DNA from: Anaerolineae bacterium
GTDB taxonomy: Bacteria > Chloroflexota > Anaerolineae > Aggregatilineales > Ch27
DNA: 64,000 nt
Direction of reading: 5' to 3'
NCBI GenBank assembly: GCA_013178165.1
Contig: JABLXG010000009.1
Coordinates: forward strand, 1-64,000
Part shown: in pieces, positions 3,857 to 53,014 of the stretch
Numbering within the stretch: position 1 is the first letter of the stretch
How the letters are laid out: each line of letters begins with the position of its first letter
Translations under genes and position numbers: made by a program
Notes under the pieces: generated by a model
What the model was told of the DNA's origin: nothing
Database searches by the model: none
Seen by the model: only the letters and a program-made list of their open reading frames with translations

Positions 3857-3986
3857 CTCTCATCTCCCAGATTTCAAGATTGAAATCTGTCGGAATTGGC
3901 ACCTTCCCTGAGACTGGTTGCAACCAGCTCAACAGGGGTTGCCGCGGTTTCACAGGGCCGTTCCCTCCACCGCTCTGGATGAGTGT
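3857..3986 (-). ncRNA. SAM-I (S-box) riboswitch upstream of metB
   Basis: Read on the minus strand, this holds the S-box signature blocks in order: CTCATCCAGAG, GGTGGAGGGA, GGCCCTGTGAAACC, GCGGCAACC, a variable arm, AAGGTGCCAATTCC, and GATGAGAG, which closes the P1 helix with CTCATC. An intrinsic terminator follows about 30 nt later. Known members bind S-adenosylmethionine and lower transcription of methionine genes when SAM is plentiful. Here that would switch metB off by premature termination. Confidence 0.95.
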
Positions 3987-25588: not shown

Positions 25589-25622
25589 GAAAAAAAGCCT
25601 TTCGCCCCCAAGGGCGAAAGGC
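25589..25622 (-). terminator. T-box regulated intrinsic terminator of valS
   Basis: On the minus strand GCCTTTCGCCC and GGGCGAAAGGC pair around a short loop and are followed by seven or eight T's. It directly follows the T-box sequence, as expected for the terminator/antiterminator switch. Confidence 0.92.
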
Positions 25623-25850
25623 CAGACCTTCCGTGGTACCACCTTGCTTCCGTGCAGATGACCTGACGGCGCTTTGAGCGATAACGGGCTGACCCGGAAA
25701 TGCCTACTGCCAAACAGAGTTCAGCATTTCAACTCCGGAGCGACGTTCAGCGGGACCATCCCGGTGGGCTTTCAGCCGGTGACCCACCTTTCTGCGGAGA
25801 CGTTGACCGCTTACTCCTCTCCATCTCGGTTGCTAACGGTATGCAATTTC
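25589..25850 (-). ncRNA. T-box leader (tRNA-Val sensing) upstream of valS
   Basis: On the minus strand the leader has a long Stem I and a specifier-like 'GAAC-GTC-G' whose GTC (25744-25742) is a valine codon. Next come a Stem III region with AGTAGGC and CCGTTAT, then the T-box core AAGGTGGTACCACGG at about 25630-25645, and the terminator. Established T-box RNAs bind uncharged tRNA through the specifier and the UGGN of the T-box, and then antiterminate. The match of a Val specifier with valS is strong internal support. Confidence 0.93.
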
Positions 25851-25957: not shown

Positions 25958-26770
25958 CTACCAGGTAGCGTCAGGAAACGTATTGATGCCGGCATGAACG
26001 CCGATACGCTTGTACATGTGAAAACCGGTGAAGGGACGCCCCAGAACGCCATCATGAATGGCCCAGGAGCGCCCACGTACCGTTCGCCAGGCATCAGGGT
26101 GCCGAAACGGGGTCGAACCATCCAGCCGGCGATACAATTCACCGCCGGGCTGGAACTCCCTGTGGATCCGTTCCATTTCCTGCCTGCCAGAGAGGTAATT
26201 GAATCCGTATCGTTCGAAGTTGATAGCATTATGGTACGCCAGCGGCTCGACCAGGAATAGTTCGTGCCCCATATTGTGCACGAACTGCTCAAAGAGCGGG
26301 ACAACGGAACGACCACTGCGCAGGCCGGCACGCACCTGTCCCGGAGCGAGTCCGGCCTGCAACGCGGCGACTTCCGCCGAAATATTGCGTCCACGTGTTC
26401 CTAGGAAAGTGGGCATACCATCAGCATCCCGGTCAATTGGAAAGCGCGGTGAATCGGGGTTGTTGATCACAACCAGCAGGACCAGCAACTGGTTGTTGAA
26501 CGTATCGACCATGTTGATGTACATGACCGGATCTTCCGCGCCGGGTCTGTGCCAGACACTCATCTCCATAGCGCGGCTGCCAGCAGGGCAGTTCATGCTC
26601 ACCACTGGCTGACCGTCCTGGGTCAGGGTTTGCGGATCAATACGGAAGCGGGAATATAGCCACGGCGCCAGCAATGTCCGGTAGATGGCATGTTTTTGCG
26701 CTTCCGGCAAATCATTGATCCCCCGGATGGAACGGGGCCACACCAGTGGCGGATACGGGGCGATCTCCAT
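25958..26770 (-). CDS. Protein of unknown function, last gene of the ctp-ctp-smpB operon
   Basis: Not recognised. 270 residues, soluble, no signal peptide or membrane helix. Conserved-looking stretches include 'CPAGSRAMEMSVWHRPGAED', 'DTFNNQLLVLLVVINNP', 'DRDADGMPTFLGT' and 'YHNAINFERYGFNYL'. The latter two have acidic and aromatic residues that could bind a metal or ligand, but I cannot assign a fold. It starts 18 bp after the smpB stop on the same strand, so co-transcription with smpB and two Ctp proteases is likely. Confidence 0.75.
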   Translation of the reverse strand: MEIAPYPPLVWPRSIRGINDLPEAQKHAIYRTLLAPWLYSRFRIDPQTLTQDGQPVVSMNCPAGSRAMEMSVWHRPGAEDPVMYINMVDTFNNQLLVLLVVINNPDSPRFPIDRDADGMPTFLGTRGRNISAEVAALQAGLAPGQVRAGLRSGRSVVPLFEQFVHNMGHELFLVEPLAYHNAINFERYGFNYLSGRQEMERIHREFQPGGELYRRLDGSTPFRHPDAWRTVRGRSWAIHDGVLGRPFTGFHMYKRIGVHAGINTFPDATW

Positions 26771-26788
26771 AGGACGGGCTGAGCGTGG

Positions 26789-27268
26789 TTACCGGCCTCG
26801 TTCTCGCAGCACACGGTCGATCTGGCGCTGGCTATCCCGCCGGGCGATAGCCTCACGCTTGTCATATTGCTTCTTGCCGCGCGCCAGGGCGATTTCCACC
26901 TTGGCTCTGCCACGCTTGAGATAAAGCGTTACCGGAATCAGGGTATAACCTTTCTCCTGGATCTTTGTCGCCAGCCGGTTAATCTCCTTGCGATGCATCA
27001 GTAGCTTGCGAGGACGCAGGGGGTCGTGGCCGTGGTAAGGCCCGGCCTGTTTGTAATCGGCAATATGGGTATTGAGCAGCCACAACTCGCCGCCCTTGAT
27101 CTGCACATAGCCATCCCGCAAGTTGACATGCCGGGCGCGGATAGATTTGATCTCTGAGCCAACCAGCACCAGACCCGCCTCGAATGTATCTTCTAGGAAG
27201 TAGTCATGACGGGCCTTGCGGTTAGTGGCAATAATTAGCCGGCCATCATCTACCTTTTTAGGAGTCAT
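26789..27268 (-). CDS. smpB: SsrA-binding protein SmpB
   Basis: tmRNA cofactor that brings SsrA to stalled ribosomes for trans-translation. 159 residues with 'NRKARHDYFLEDTFEAGLVL' at the N-terminus, the 'GSEIKSIRARHVNLRDGYV' core and the basic C-terminal tail that mimics an mRNA/tRNA element. Length is typical. The start overlaps the end of the upstream protease gene by 11 bp, indicating translational coupling. No tmRNA gene is recognisable in the window. Confidence 0.96.
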   Translation of the reverse strand: MTPKKVDDGRLIIATNRKARHDYFLEDTFEAGLVLVGSEIKSIRARHVNLRDGYVQIKGGELWLLNTHIADYKQAGPYHGHDPLRPRKLLMHRKEINRLATKIQEKGYTLIPVTLYLKRGRAKVEIALARGKKQYDKREAIARRDSQRQIDRVLRERGR

Positions 27269-28529
27269 TGCTTTCTGTCACCACTGGATACGTTGCATCG
27301 ATATACTCAATAGCCGCTGCCAGCCAGGGATCATCGGCAGGGCCGAAGCCATCGGCAGGCAACTCAACCGGAATATCCGGCGAAATGCCCGTGCTGTTCA
27401 AGGCGATCTCGTCAGGGGTGTACCAAGCGCCATAGGTGATACGAAGCTGCGAGCCGTCGGAAAGATCATGCACGAGTTGCACCGAGCCTTTGCCAAACGT
27501 AGGCAGGCCGACAAGCACCCCGCGCTCACGGTCACGGATCGCACCAGCTACGATCTCAGAGGCGCTGGCGCTACCGCGGTCAATTAACACCACCAGCGGG
27601 ATATCTTCAGCCACATCACCAGTGTCCGAGTAGAACACACGTGGTTCCTTGAGGAGAGTGGTGCGCTGGATCGCTACAATACCCTGCGGTAAAAACAGAT
27701 CGCTGACACTGATTGCTTCATCCAGCAACCCGCCCGGATTGCCGCGTAAGTCCAGAATCAGCGCGCGCGGATTCTGAGCAAGCAAACGGGTTAGCTCGGC
27801 TTCCAGTTGCCGGGTTGCGACACCATTGAAGCGGAACAGCGCCGCATAGGCGATCTTGCCCTCAAGCATCTCAGCGCGAACCGTTGGAATCTGGATTTCG
27901 GCCCGCTCAACATCAACCTCAAAGATCTCGCCAGTTTGCGGTCGGAAGATTCGCAGCCGCACCGTTGTCCCCAGAGGTCCACGAATCAGAGCAGTGCCCT
28001 CGGCCAGAGTCAGATTCTCCAGCGATTGGCCATCAGCGCTCAGGACAATGTCGCCTACCTGCAATCCTGCCCGGCTTGCCGGTTGATCAGGGAAGGGATA
28101 GGCGATGTAAAGCTGGCCGTACTCGTTCAGGTTGACATAGGCGCCAATACCGCCGAAGACACCTTCAATATTTTCACGCTCAACTTCGGCAATGCTGGGC
28201 TGAACAAACGCTGTGTGAACATCACCCAGCGTTTCCAGCATTCCCCTGATGGCGCCGTAGGTCCGTTCGACAGTATCCGGGACATCATAGTAGAATTCGC
28301 TTTCCACATAGTCCCAGACTTCCCAGAAGACATCGAATCCCTCCGGGCCGCGCTGAACAGCGACATCCGCCGAAACACTGCCGGTCCCAGCCACAAAGCC
28401 GGCGAAAAACCCACCCGTCGCCACAACGACCAGTGCCAGCACAATGGCAATAATCTCCCGGCGGCTGCCCAGACGTGGTAGCTCCAGAACCTCGGTGTCG
28501 GATGGCTTGGATGATCTGGCGTTATTCAT
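27258..28529 (-). CDS. S41 C-terminal processing protease (Ctp/Tsp family)
   Basis: 423 residues. One N-terminal membrane helix (about residues 24-45) is followed by an exported PDZ domain ('GIGAYVNLNEYGQLYIAYPF', 'AGLQVGDIVLSADGQSL') and the S41 protease core. The catalytic serine is in 'RGSASASEIVAG' and the lysine in 'TFGKGSVQL', forming the Ser-Lys dyad. The family cuts proteins from their C-terminal tails outside the cytoplasm. It is the second of two adjacent paralogues, 12 bp after the first, and is coupled to smpB. Confidence 0.93.
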   Translation of the reverse strand: MNNARSSKPSDTEVLELPRLGSRREIIAIVLALVVVATGGFFAGFVAGTGSVSADVAVQRGPEGFDVFWEVWDYVESEFYYDVPDTVERTYGAIRGMLETLGDVHTAFVQPSIAEVERENIEGVFGGIGAYVNLNEYGQLYIAYPFPDQPASRAGLQVGDIVLSADGQSLENLTLAEGTALIRGPLGTTVRLRIFRPQTGEIFEVDVERAEIQIPTVRAEMLEGKIAYAALFRFNGVATRQLEAELTRLLAQNPRALILDLRGNPGGLLDEAISVSDLFLPQGIVAIQRTTLLKEPRVFYSDTGDVAEDIPLVVLIDRGSASASEIVAGAIRDRERGVLVGLPTFGKGSVQLVHDLSDGSQLRITYGAWYTPDEIALNSTGISPDIPVELPADGFGPADDPWLAAAIEYIDATYPVVTESNDS

Positions 28530-28541
28530 ACCGCTAAACCT

Positions 28542-29762
28542 TTATTCTGCAATCCGGGACTGAAGCTGCCGGATAGCTTCGTCCAGCTCAACGTCGCGCC
28601 CGTCTTCGGCGGGGATCATGCTGATATCGGGTTCCAGCCCCTGTCGATTCAATGGGGTACGGTCCGGTGTCAGCCATTCGGCGGAGGTGATGTGGACAGA
28701 GGAACCATCGGATAGCGGGAAGATCAGCTGTACCGATCCTTTGCCAAACGTGCGTTGGCCAATAACAGTTGCACGGTCATTATCCTGCAACGCCCCGGCG
28801 ACCAGTTCAGCGGCGCTGGCCGTACCCTGATTGACCAGAACTATCATCGGCAAAGCAACATCCAACCCGCCATCGCCGGCTGTATACGTGCGTTCGGCCT
28901 CCCGTGTCTTTTCGATGACAATGACACCGTCATTCAGGATTTCGTCAGCGGTGTCAATAGCCTCCTTAAGCAGGCCGCCAGCGTTATTGCGCAGATCAAG
29001 AACCAGTGCCTTCACCCGCAGCGCCAAGAGTTCATCGAACGCCTGGCGCAACTCCTCAGGAGTACGACTGGTGAAGCTCTTGATCTGGACGTACCCGATC
29101 CGGGGGTCTTCGATCAGGGTGCGCCAGATAACGGAGGGTACCGTGATGATCGCAAATAGGACGGTGTAAGTGACTTCCACGTTGTTTTCGCGTTTGCGAA
29201 CACGGATGTCAACACCATTGCCTTCTTTGACCTCACCGCGCAGAGCACGGACTATTTCGTCAAGACGTGTGCCCGGCGTAACCGCCTGGCCGTTGATAGC
29301 CAGCAGAATATCGCCTTCCTCCACCCCGGCAGCCAGGGCAGGGCTGTCGGGATAGGGATACAACACGTAGCTCCCCTCAGCCGCATATTGCACGTCAACG
29401 CCGATTCCGCCGTATTGTCCGGCTAACGCATCAGACTCGTTGCGGGTCACAGGGGGATCATTGAACAACGTGTAAGGGTCATTAAGGGCGTTCAGTGCGC
29501 CTCGAATTGCTGCATACTCAAGCGTCCGCTGCTCCGGAAGTTCTCGCAGGTAATAGCGTTCAAGCAACCCCTGCACTTCCTGCAGAAGCGCGTATTGCTC
29601 AGGGGGATCGGCGAGCGCCAGACCTCCGGACGTAGCAGGCAACAGGCTACCGCGCAAGAAGAAACCTGCTACGAAAGCGGCCAACAGCGTAATGCCAATT
29701 ACAACTCCCTTCAGGATCGGCAGTACCCATAACGCAACCCAACCTGAGCCACGAGAACCCAT
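28542..29762 (-). CDS. S41 C-terminal processing protease, paralogue
   Basis: 406 residues from the ATG at 29762, chosen because the next residues (GSRGSGW) directly precede the membrane helix near residues 15-38; an earlier in-frame start would add an untypical 37-residue head. A PDZ domain ('GIGVDVQYAAEGSYVLYPY', 'AGVEEGDILLAINGQAV') is followed by the S41 core with Ser in 'QGTASAAELVAG' and Lys in 'TFGKGSVQL'. First gene of the operon ctp-ctp-smpB-unknown. Confidence 0.92.
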   Translation of the reverse strand: MGSRGSGWVALWVLPILKGVVIGITLLAAFVAGFFLRGSLLPATSGGLALADPPEQYALLQEVQGLLERYYLRELPEQRTLEYAAIRGALNALNDPYTLFNDPPVTRNESDALAGQYGGIGVDVQYAAEGSYVLYPYPDSPALAAGVEEGDILLAINGQAVTPGTRLDEIVRALRGEVKEGNGVDIRVRKRENNVEVTYTVLFAIITVPSVIWRTLIEDPRIGYVQIKSFTSRTPEELRQAFDELLALRVKALVLDLRNNAGGLLKEAIDTADEILNDGVIVIEKTREAERTYTAGDGGLDVALPMIVLVNQGTASAAELVAGALQDNDRATVIGQRTFGKGSVQLIFPLSDGSSVHITSAEWLTPDRTPLNRQGLEPDISMIPAEDGRDVELDEAIRQLQSRIAE

Positions 29763-29949
29763 AAGCCCATACCCGACTATCTCGAAAGCACCCCGCGCAG
29801 TTTCGAATTCTAGCACAGAGTATCGGGATAAACGACCCTGTGTGCAGGACAATGCTTCAGCGGAGAAGAACACTTGCCTGGCCGAGATTTTTTGGGTAGC
29901 GTCATAGGTGGATTTATCGGAGCATTAATGCACTGGCGAGGCGCCATCT

Positions 29950-31587
29950 ATGGATGCTACAAAGGGCCTGATCCTGATCGCTGATGACGAGGAGAACATG
30001 GTGCAGTTGCTCAAACGTCTGTTTGAGCACGATGGATTTCAGGTAGAGGCAGTATCAGATGGCATGTCCGCGCTGCAAAGAGCGGTGGACCTGCAGCCCG
30101 AACTTATTCTAATGGATGTGATGATGCCCGGCTTAAACGGCTTCGAGGTCATCAAACAGCTGCGCCAGAGCAAGCCAACAGCGCGTATCCCCACAATCTT
30201 CATCAGCGCCGCAGCTAAAGAACCCACCGACATTGTCCGGGGGCTTGGGCTGGGAGCGGATGATTACGTTCTGAAGCCGTTTAATCCCCAGGAACTACTG
30301 GCACGGGCGAGAAGCAAGATTCGCGCCCGCCAGCTGGAAGAAGACCTGGAACGCCGGAACAAAGAGCTTGAAGCGCTGGTACGGGTAGGCCACGAATTCA
30401 ACCAGCGTCTCAAGCTGGACGATCTCCTGGATTTGATCGTTTCCGTGTGTGCGGCTGAATTGCCGGCGTGTCAGGTTGCCTTCTGTCTGCTTGATCAGCA
30501 ATTGCAGGTGACCGATTGGCGAGCGTTACACCACAACAGCGCCTACAAGAAAGCTGATATCCAGGCGCTAGTCGATCACACTGAATCCATTCTGGGCTGG
30601 CTGCTGCAGGCCGAATCCTCAGTGCATATCGCCGACATGCTGCAGAGAGATCCTTTATTTGAAGGTTGCCGCTCGCTGATCGGCACCCGCATTGTCCACC
30701 ATGGCGAACTCCTGGGACTCATTGCGCTTGGGTATGAGACACCGGGCTGTTATGATGAGGGGCACCTTCGCCTGCTGGAGTCTATTACCGGTCAGGCGGC
30801 ACTGGCCATCCGAAATGCCGAACTCTATGCCGAACTGCGTTACTATGCCCTTAACCTGGAAAACATGGTTGCGGAGCGAACGGCGGAATTGCGGGCCGCA
30901 CAGTCCCAGCTAATCCGTTCGGAGAAACTGGCTTCTCTTGGCCGCCTTGCAGCAGGCATTGCGCACGAAGTCAACAATCCGCTACAGGCGATCCGCAACT
31001 GTCTCGAACTGGCTATCGAGGATATTGACGCGCACAGACCGGTGGACAGAGAGTTGTTGACTGTGGCTGAACAAGACGTCGAACGAATCCGGCGGATCGT
31101 CAGCCAGTTACTGGATTTCTCCCGGCGGGGTTCGAGTGACCTCAGGCCGCTTGAGGTTGGCGAGGCTGTCCGTTCAGTGTTGCGCCTGGTTGACCGCCAG
31201 CTTGAGCGTTCCAACATCAAACTAGTCACCGAGATCAACAGCACAGCACCCGTGCAGATCAATGAAGACCAGTTCAAACAGGTGGTTTTGAACCTGCTCC
31301 TTAATGCTCAGGAGGCGATGCCCGCTGGAGGAACCCTGTGGGTCAGGGTCGAACAGCTCGAAAGCGAAGTCCTCATTTCAGTAACTGACACAGGTATTGG
31401 CATCCCAGAGCATGATATGCCCAAGATTTTTGACCCGTTCTTTTCAACCAAAGTGGATGGCACCGGCCTGGGTCTGGCGGTCAGCTACGGCATCGTTGAA
31501 GGGCACGGTGGACGGATCGAAGTCAGGAGCCGGGAGAATCACGGCTCCACATTCACAGTCAGGTTGCCCGCCTATCGACAACCATAG
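29950..31587 (+). CDS. Hybrid REC-GAF sensor histidine kinase
   Basis: 545 residues, cytoplasmic. The N-terminal receiver domain (about 7-120) has the phospho-Asp in 'LILMDVMMPGLNGFEV' and the lysine in 'DYVLKPFNPQELL'. A GAF domain covers about 150-290, then a coiled coil. The HisKA motif is 'SLGRLAAGIAHEVNNPLQAI' and the ATPase domain has 'NLLLNAQEAMPAGG', 'DTGIGIPEHDMPKIFDPF' and 'GTGLGLAVSYGIVEGHGG', resembling NtrB-type kinases. A receiver ahead of the kinase suggests it takes a phosphate or signal from another kinase. No partner regulator is adjacent. Confidence 0.92.
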   Translation: MDATKGLILIADDEENMVQLLKRLFEHDGFQVEAVSDGMSALQRAVDLQPELILMDVMMPGLNGFEVIKQLRQSKPTARIPTIFISAAAKEPTDIVRGLGLGADDYVLKPFNPQELLARARSKIRARQLEEDLERRNKELEALVRVGHEFNQRLKLDDLLDLIVSVCAAELPACQVAFCLLDQQLQVTDWRALHHNSAYKKADIQALVDHTESILGWLLQAESSVHIADMLQRDPLFEGCRSLIGTRIVHHGELLGLIALGYETPGCYDEGHLRLLESITGQAALAIRNAELYAELRYYALNLENMVAERTAELRAAQSQLIRSEKLASLGRLAAGIAHEVNNPLQAIRNCLELAIEDIDAHRPVDRELLTVAEQDVERIRRIVSQLLDFSRRGSSDLRPLEVGEAVRSVLRLVDRQLERSNIKLVTEINSTAPVQINEDQFKQVVLNLLLNAQEAMPAGGTLWVRVEQLESEVLISVTDTGIGIPEHDMPKIFDPFFSTKVDGTGLGLAVSYGIVEGHGGRIEVRSRENHGSTFTVRLPAYRQP

Positions 31588-52876: not shown

Positions 52877-52909
52877 ATATATTGATATCCGTTTAACAAC
52901 TGATACTGT

Positions 52910-53001
52910 ATGGCCAGGGGAGTTCGCAACGCGAACTGAGAGGACGTAGTAGCGTCGACCCTGTGACCTGATCCGGGTAATACCGGCGTAGGGAGAGCCA
53001 G
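52910..53001 (+). ncRNA. TPP (thi-box) riboswitch upstream of thiBPQ
   Basis: The conserved blocks occur in order: CCAGGGGAG, AACTGAGAGG, a variable arm, GACCCTGTGACCTGATC, and CGGGTAATACCGGCGTAGGGA. These form the pyrimidine- and pyrophosphate-binding arms of TPP riboswitches. A terminator follows at 53015. Known TPP riboswitches shut off thiamine synthesis or uptake genes when TPP is bound, fitting the three transporter genes downstream. Confidence 0.95.
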
Positions 53002-53014
53002 TTTTCAAGAACGC

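Follow-up and report, generated by a model that had tools for sequence, protein, structure and literature searches.

The window analyzed here is the whole stretch of 64,000 nucleotides from contig JABLXG010000009.1 of an Anaerolineae bacterium (phylum Chloroflexota), and the system in question is a four-gene array on its minus strand at 25958-29762, in the order ctp1, ctp2, smpB and a gene for a 270-residue protein, which we refer to as the fourth gene. A sequence-only reading had proposed that two Ctp-type proteases, smpB and this protein form an operon, and a check of the open reading frames (ORFs) confirmed all four of them together with their tight spacing: 12 nt between ctp1 and ctp2, an 11-nt overlap of ctp2 with smpB, and 18 nt between smpB and the fourth gene. 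The first gene, ctp1 (28542..29762, minus strand), encodes an S41 C-terminal processing protease with PDZ and S41 domains; its start was placed at the ATG at 29762, while the open frame extends to a GTG at 29873. A second S41 C-terminal processing protease is encoded by ctp2 (27258..28529, minus strand). Both S41 proteins were confirmed by NCBIfam and scored above the Pfam S41 cut-off with their PDZ domains present and their Ser and Lys motifs kept, and both begin with a hydrophobic stretch, as read by eye, of the kind anticipated for proteases that work outside the cytoplasm, whereas the 270-residue protein has none at its N-terminus. The product of smpB (26789..27268, minus strand) carries a basic C-terminal tail and scored above the cut-off in Pfam and in both NCBIfam SmpB models. 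The fourth gene (25958..26770, minus strand) encodes a protein with a GNAT-like predicted fold that gave zero matches in Pfam, NCBIfam, PHROGs and PADLOC and none of significance among PDB sequences. Considering that it can be aligned to 33 related sequences at 42-93% identity, the fourth ORF is coding. A mobile origin was considered and rejected, since searches of 72,556 plasmids and of 50,697 phages both came back empty.

The relation that stands out at this locus is the one between smpB and the fourth gene. A profile scan of named genomes returned at least 496 relatives among 595 candidate stretches, and the counts for named loci given here refer to the best 80 of those 496, all of which carry Chloroflexota-type titles. 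In 78 of the 80, smpB precedes the fourth gene on its own strand, within 216 nt in 75 loci and at 825-1621 nt in three; one of the two exceptions has merely 143 nt of upstream sequence, and the other (L102) is a true miss. When the 78 gaps were measured from longest-ORF starts, 21 were exactly -4 nt and 66 fell between -28 and +32. A family tree was then built from 132 rows with a midpoint root, L031 being excluded for its stop codon, and it separates into clade A (112 rows, branch SH-aLRT 91), clade B (15 rows), clade C (4 rows) and one long branch. Within clade A, smpB was found within 4.5 kb in 109 of 112 rows and was missing in two, and one row counts for neither. The linkage to smpB, whose loss had been named among the findings that would speak against the operon, is thus conserved in clade A, and by both counts (78/80 and 109/112) the gene has the kind of lasting association with smpB that a trans-translation accessory factor would show.

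Over wider samples the linkage is looser. Of 41 genomes that include the window's own, 24 carry the fourth gene; smpB lies directly upstream in 20 of the 24, one copy is at a contig end, and the link is absent in three (G010, G015, G031). The copy of G015 (L031), on a separate contig from smpB, has an in-frame TGA and is perhaps decaying. A census of the class found the family in 76 of 249 genomes and smpB in 229 of 249. By coordinates and compared loci, smpB is within 400 nt of the gene in 38 of the 76; in 13 others it shares the gene's strand at a distance of 0.8-3.7 kb, two copies are at contig ends, and in the remaining 23 smpB is on another contig, outside the examined stretch or absent. 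The linkage claimed by the sequence-only reading stands for clade A and has these exceptions over the class as a whole. In a sample of the phylum, 28 of 400 genomes carry the family, a count reached by single protein and by profile alike, and all 28 belong to the window's class; in this sample and among the best 80 of the 496 relatives, the family is seen within Chloroflexota in that class only.

The S41 genes behave differently from the pair. They are found upstream of it in 68 of the 80 named loci, and 5 of the 12 misses have less than 750 nt of upstream sequence. In four loci of a more distant family, f9 (L272-L275; three of the genomes are single contigs and the fourth is in about 20 pieces), smpB and the fourth gene stay together with no S41 gene nearby, and when these loci were compared with 30 kb of the window, smpB and the fourth gene were the only evident orthologues. 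L275 showed extra kinase matches to the window at 29-36%, which look paralogous, and the four loci share some other neighbours pairwise, chiefly L272-L274. The reverse case was found among 14 relatives that have smpB and lack the fourth gene: nine of their smpB loci were compared, and S41 genes lie upstream in six. At a finer scale, the order in G007 is smpB-trpS, and that in G020 and G035 is smpB-fourth gene-trpS. Because each arrangement occurs without the other, the smpB-fourth gene pair and the S41-smpB link are separable, and in part of the clade the S41 genes are neighbours of smpB in their own right, by an arrangement that is likewise old. The proposed coupling of the proteases to the unit holds for most of the named loci as a matter of position, and fails wherever the pair or the S41-smpB link stands by itself.

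Structure prediction and remote-homology comparison of the 270-residue protein point to a GNAT-like fold. An AlphaFold2 model built from 71 sequences had a pLDDT of 94.4 and a pTM of 0.88. The best Foldseek rows were mostly GNATs (best E 0.021), with some unrelated rows among them, and VIA-align gave a best Z of 7.2 to SpNatD (rmsd 4.1 over 143 residues); its best 50 rows are all GNAT-fold proteins, as judged from titles or known folds. When 101 family sequences were compared by local HHalign with 28 GNAT domains encoded in this genome, the score was 23.8 (E 0.006). None of 150 column-shuffled alignments reached that score (maximum 16.1), and the reversed alignment scored 10.0. In the HHalign alignment, LAPGQVRxGL falls on the GNAT CoA loop, and motif B is matched by PLxYHNAIxFERYGF. 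On the minus strand of the window, the conserved loop QAGLAPGQVRAGLRS occupies 26315..26359 (codons 138-152 of the fourth gene) and aligns with the CoA-binding loop without the canonical motif, and EPLAYHNAINFERYGF occupies 26201..26248 (codons 175-190) and aligns with motif B. In the model, one long insertion separates the predicted strand 95-102 from the loop and another separates strand 191-194 from strand 251-255, and the protein contains many invariant charged residues. Based on the model and the profile comparison, the family likely has a divergent GNAT-like fold in which the donor-binding loop is modified.

The three clades differ in their surroundings. In clade B the family gene is placed between an inositol-monophosphatase-family gene and a phosphorylase-superfamily gene, the latter presumably MTA phosphorylase-like, or next to one of the two, and often follows an SDR gene (L194, L196, L202, L291); in seven clade B genomes of group f121, smpB is also present 1.6-3.7 kb upstream. 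In clade C the neighbours are STAS, RsbW-like HATPase kinase and patatin-like phospholipase genes, with the family gene between STAS and the RsbW-like gene (L208, L211, L292, L293); the cluster is a possible partner-switching system. All three clades have 28 positions in common, and clades B and C keep the same invariant residues as clade A.

Taken all together, a family coupled to smpB, likely with a GNAT-like fold, is well supported, and its linkage suggests a lineage-specific partner of ribosome rescue. The explanation that we put forward, tentatively and with less than even confidence as a whole, is that smpB and the fourth gene are a lasting two-gene unit in which a cytosolic GNAT-like enzyme was recruited to the smpB operon and acts in rescue. 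Here the smpB link suggests when the protein is made and the fold suggests its kind of work: it would be synthesized in step with SmpB, and would be an acyl- or aminoacyl-transferase with an altered cofactor loop that may modify SmpB, the tagged chain, or a partner bound to tmRNA or the ribosome. The chemistry of the family would probably be older than the tight smpB link, and it is also found in the settings of clades B and C. The mechanism is what we infer from these two lines. A more specific version, in which trans-translation of the Anaerolineae type, in a group whose sampled members mostly lack RNase R, has a dedicated enzyme, a GNAT-like transferase that bears a new donor loop and chemically alters either the rescue complex or the tagged chain once released, seems rather unlikely; we know of no such modification step in the trans-translation of other bacteria.

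The trans-translation background of the lineage was surveyed in the same 41 genomes, where tmRNA scored above its cut-off in 40. ARAGORN, applied to 30 loci, found tmRNA in 23 and none in seven; one tag (L244) is implausible, and the other 22 all have AA as their last two residues, preceded for the most part by M or L, whether or not the genome carries the fourth gene. The tag of the window's genome ends in AMAMAA. An RNB domain (RNase R/II) was found in one of the 41 genomes, though tmRNA and mostly smpB are kept, and in 11 of 14 control genomes. NFACT_N was present in 41 of 41 (40 above the cut-off), with and without the fourth gene, so that complementation of RqcH was an uninformative candidate.

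A number of results weigh against the idea of a GNAT-like enzyme working in rescue. Two candidate mechanisms were rejected: a special tmRNA tag, since tags look alike with and without the gene, and acetylation of RNase R, since no RNB domain was found in 40 of the 41 genomes of the lineage. The physical tie of the protein to tmRNA or SmpB is proposed from gene linkage, and in near relatives gene order says little taken alone, because synteny around the window is broad: in 33 named loci with full flanks of 6 kb on each side, smpB is kept in 33, S41 genes in 31, the divergent kinase in 27, a STAND-type gene in 21 and a TPR gene in 20. The gene is away from smpB in the 23 class genomes noted above, and because the 28 shared positions span clades A, B and C, the core chemistry is probably common to the clades and not specific to smpB. 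Regarding the fold, Foldseek gave no match at E <= 0.001, nor did a search of a viral structure library at the same threshold; a VIA-align Z below 8, taken alone, could reflect a common fold arrangement. The HHalign probability was 6%, and an earlier global HHalign run was empty, the local run being a second attempt with a larger alignment. No GNAT profile exceeded its curated cut-off for the window protein (0 Pfam and 0 NCBIfam families), and when 34 family members were compared with Pfam, the best E was 0.18, with six weak families at E <= 1 and no GNAT model among them. The canonical CoA-loop motif, [QR]xxGx[GA], was found in one of 126 recognised loops from the 132 rows. Considering this motif count, the Z below 8 and the HHalign probability of 6%, we label the family GNAT-like without assigning it to the GNATs.

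Among the alternatives, a metabolic or signalling transferase survives best, and we regard it as a serious possibility that falls short of an even chance. The protein would then act on a small molecule or lipid, along the lines of a FeeM- or OlsB-like N-acyltransferase, and would merely share the smpB promoter in an old expression-level arrangement. The metabolic and signalling neighbours of clades B and C fit this, as do the identical invariant residues in all clades, the second rank of FeeM in Foldseek (E 0.022) and the copies away from smpB in the class. However, the clade A pair is kept where the S41 genes and other window neighbours are gone, the 4-nt overlap in 21 of 78 loci exceeds what promoter sharing needs, and a label scan of the tree rows showed no inositol-monophosphatase or MTA-phosphorylase genes beside clade A copies. 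We consider improbable a non-catalytic scaffold of GNAT fold, in which a dead donor site would leave a structural or regulatory subunit binding SmpB or tmRNA. The missing CoA-loop motif and the long insertions before the loop and between the later strands speak for it, but in all three clades the loop ranks with the best conserved portions of the protein, unlike a decayed site, and the charged invariants point to a working pocket. Synteny inertia, where the order is kept through descent with little functional meaning, draws on the facts that all listed matches come from one class and clade A is one lineage, that S41 genes and the divergent kinase are nearly as well kept near the window (31/33 and 27/33), and that L272-L274 have some other neighbours in common. 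Against the sole evident orthology of the pair in L272-L275, the paralogous look of the L275 kinase matches and the recurrence of start-stop overlaps in 21 of 78 loci, this explanation is quite improbable. The least probable is the original suggestion of an adaptor or substrate handler joining SsrA tagging to both Ctp proteases in a single unit, for which the tight four-gene array, the upstream S41 genes in 68 of 80 loci and the listing of Tsp among the proteases acting on tagged products (PMC3985003) can be cited, but which has to contend with the S41-free pairs, the S41-smpB loci without the fourth gene, proteases that look membrane-anchored and outward-facing opposite a cytosolic-looking protein, and a predicted fold with charged invariants that is more enzyme- than adaptor-like.

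Several features surround the array. A valS T-box leader (25607..25836, minus strand) marks the downstream boundary of the unit and lies outside it; a promoter-like site at 25885-25856 and a terminator-like stem at 25623-25596 fit this leader. A further minus-strand promoter-like site lies within the fourth gene and two terminator-like stems lie within the protease genes; in these scans the counts were not above those of shuffled sequence. On the other side, a divergent response regulator-GAF-histidine kinase protein (29950-31587) adjoins ctp1, and a match to the divergent kinase is present upstream in 42 of the best 80 named loci. A STAND-type ATPase, mostly of 750-840 residues, begins near the stop of the fourth gene, often overlapping it, in 36 of 100 loci (L063-L127, e.g. 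L065:6770-9112); one scanned member has AAA_16/NB-ARC and TPR domains, and some copies are truncated at contig ends. The window also contains a SAM riboswitch (3857-3985) and a TPP riboswitch (52906-53012).

Few partners are known for SmpB, which is a core factor of ribosome rescue. The presence of this gene after smpB throughout a deep branch, with a recurrent 4-nt overlap and also where S41 genes are absent, is a strong association, and trans-translation would gain a further chemical step if the protein does modify a rescue component. The family, defined by three clades and 28 shared invariant positions, is testable. Most subscription journals aside, none of the titles and abstracts listed in paper searches describes the smpB-fourth gene pair, and the family is apparently undescribed.

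When compared with known systems, both window proteases match Tsp/Prc and CtpB in domains and catalytic motifs; these S41 genes are only neighbours and are not tied to the fourth gene. The likeness to the N-acyl amino acid synthase FeeM is confined to its Foldseek rank, with no PDB sequence match, and FeeM is absent from the best 50 VIA-align rows, which rules out nothing. With the GNAT superfamily (NatD/NAA40, Elp3, TacT/AtaT, SpeG and RimI among the top structural rows) the 270-residue protein shares the predicted order of strands and helices, the loop and motif B being in register; the family differs in having no Pfam match, no canonical CoA-loop motif, two large insertions and a Z below 8. 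In E. coli, RNase R is driven by acetylation to bind to tmRNA-SmpB and is then degraded, and the circuit of PatZ (Pka), RNase R and tmRNA-SmpB is a known case of lysine-acetylation control of a tmRNA-SmpB partner, as described in PMC12320835; because RNB is found in one of the 41 genomes, the same substrate is excluded here. A survey of 2012 smpB neighbourhoods named ssrA, ratA/rnfH, RNase R, SecG and RF-2 as neighbours (PMC4131195). It covered the tmRNA gene together with those Pfam families that occur in more than 200 neighbourhoods; the present family has no Pfam entry and the ssrA gene of this genome is on a different contig from smpB. The known smpB neighbours of that survey resemble the fourth gene in being co-inherited with smpB, and several of them act on the ribosome.

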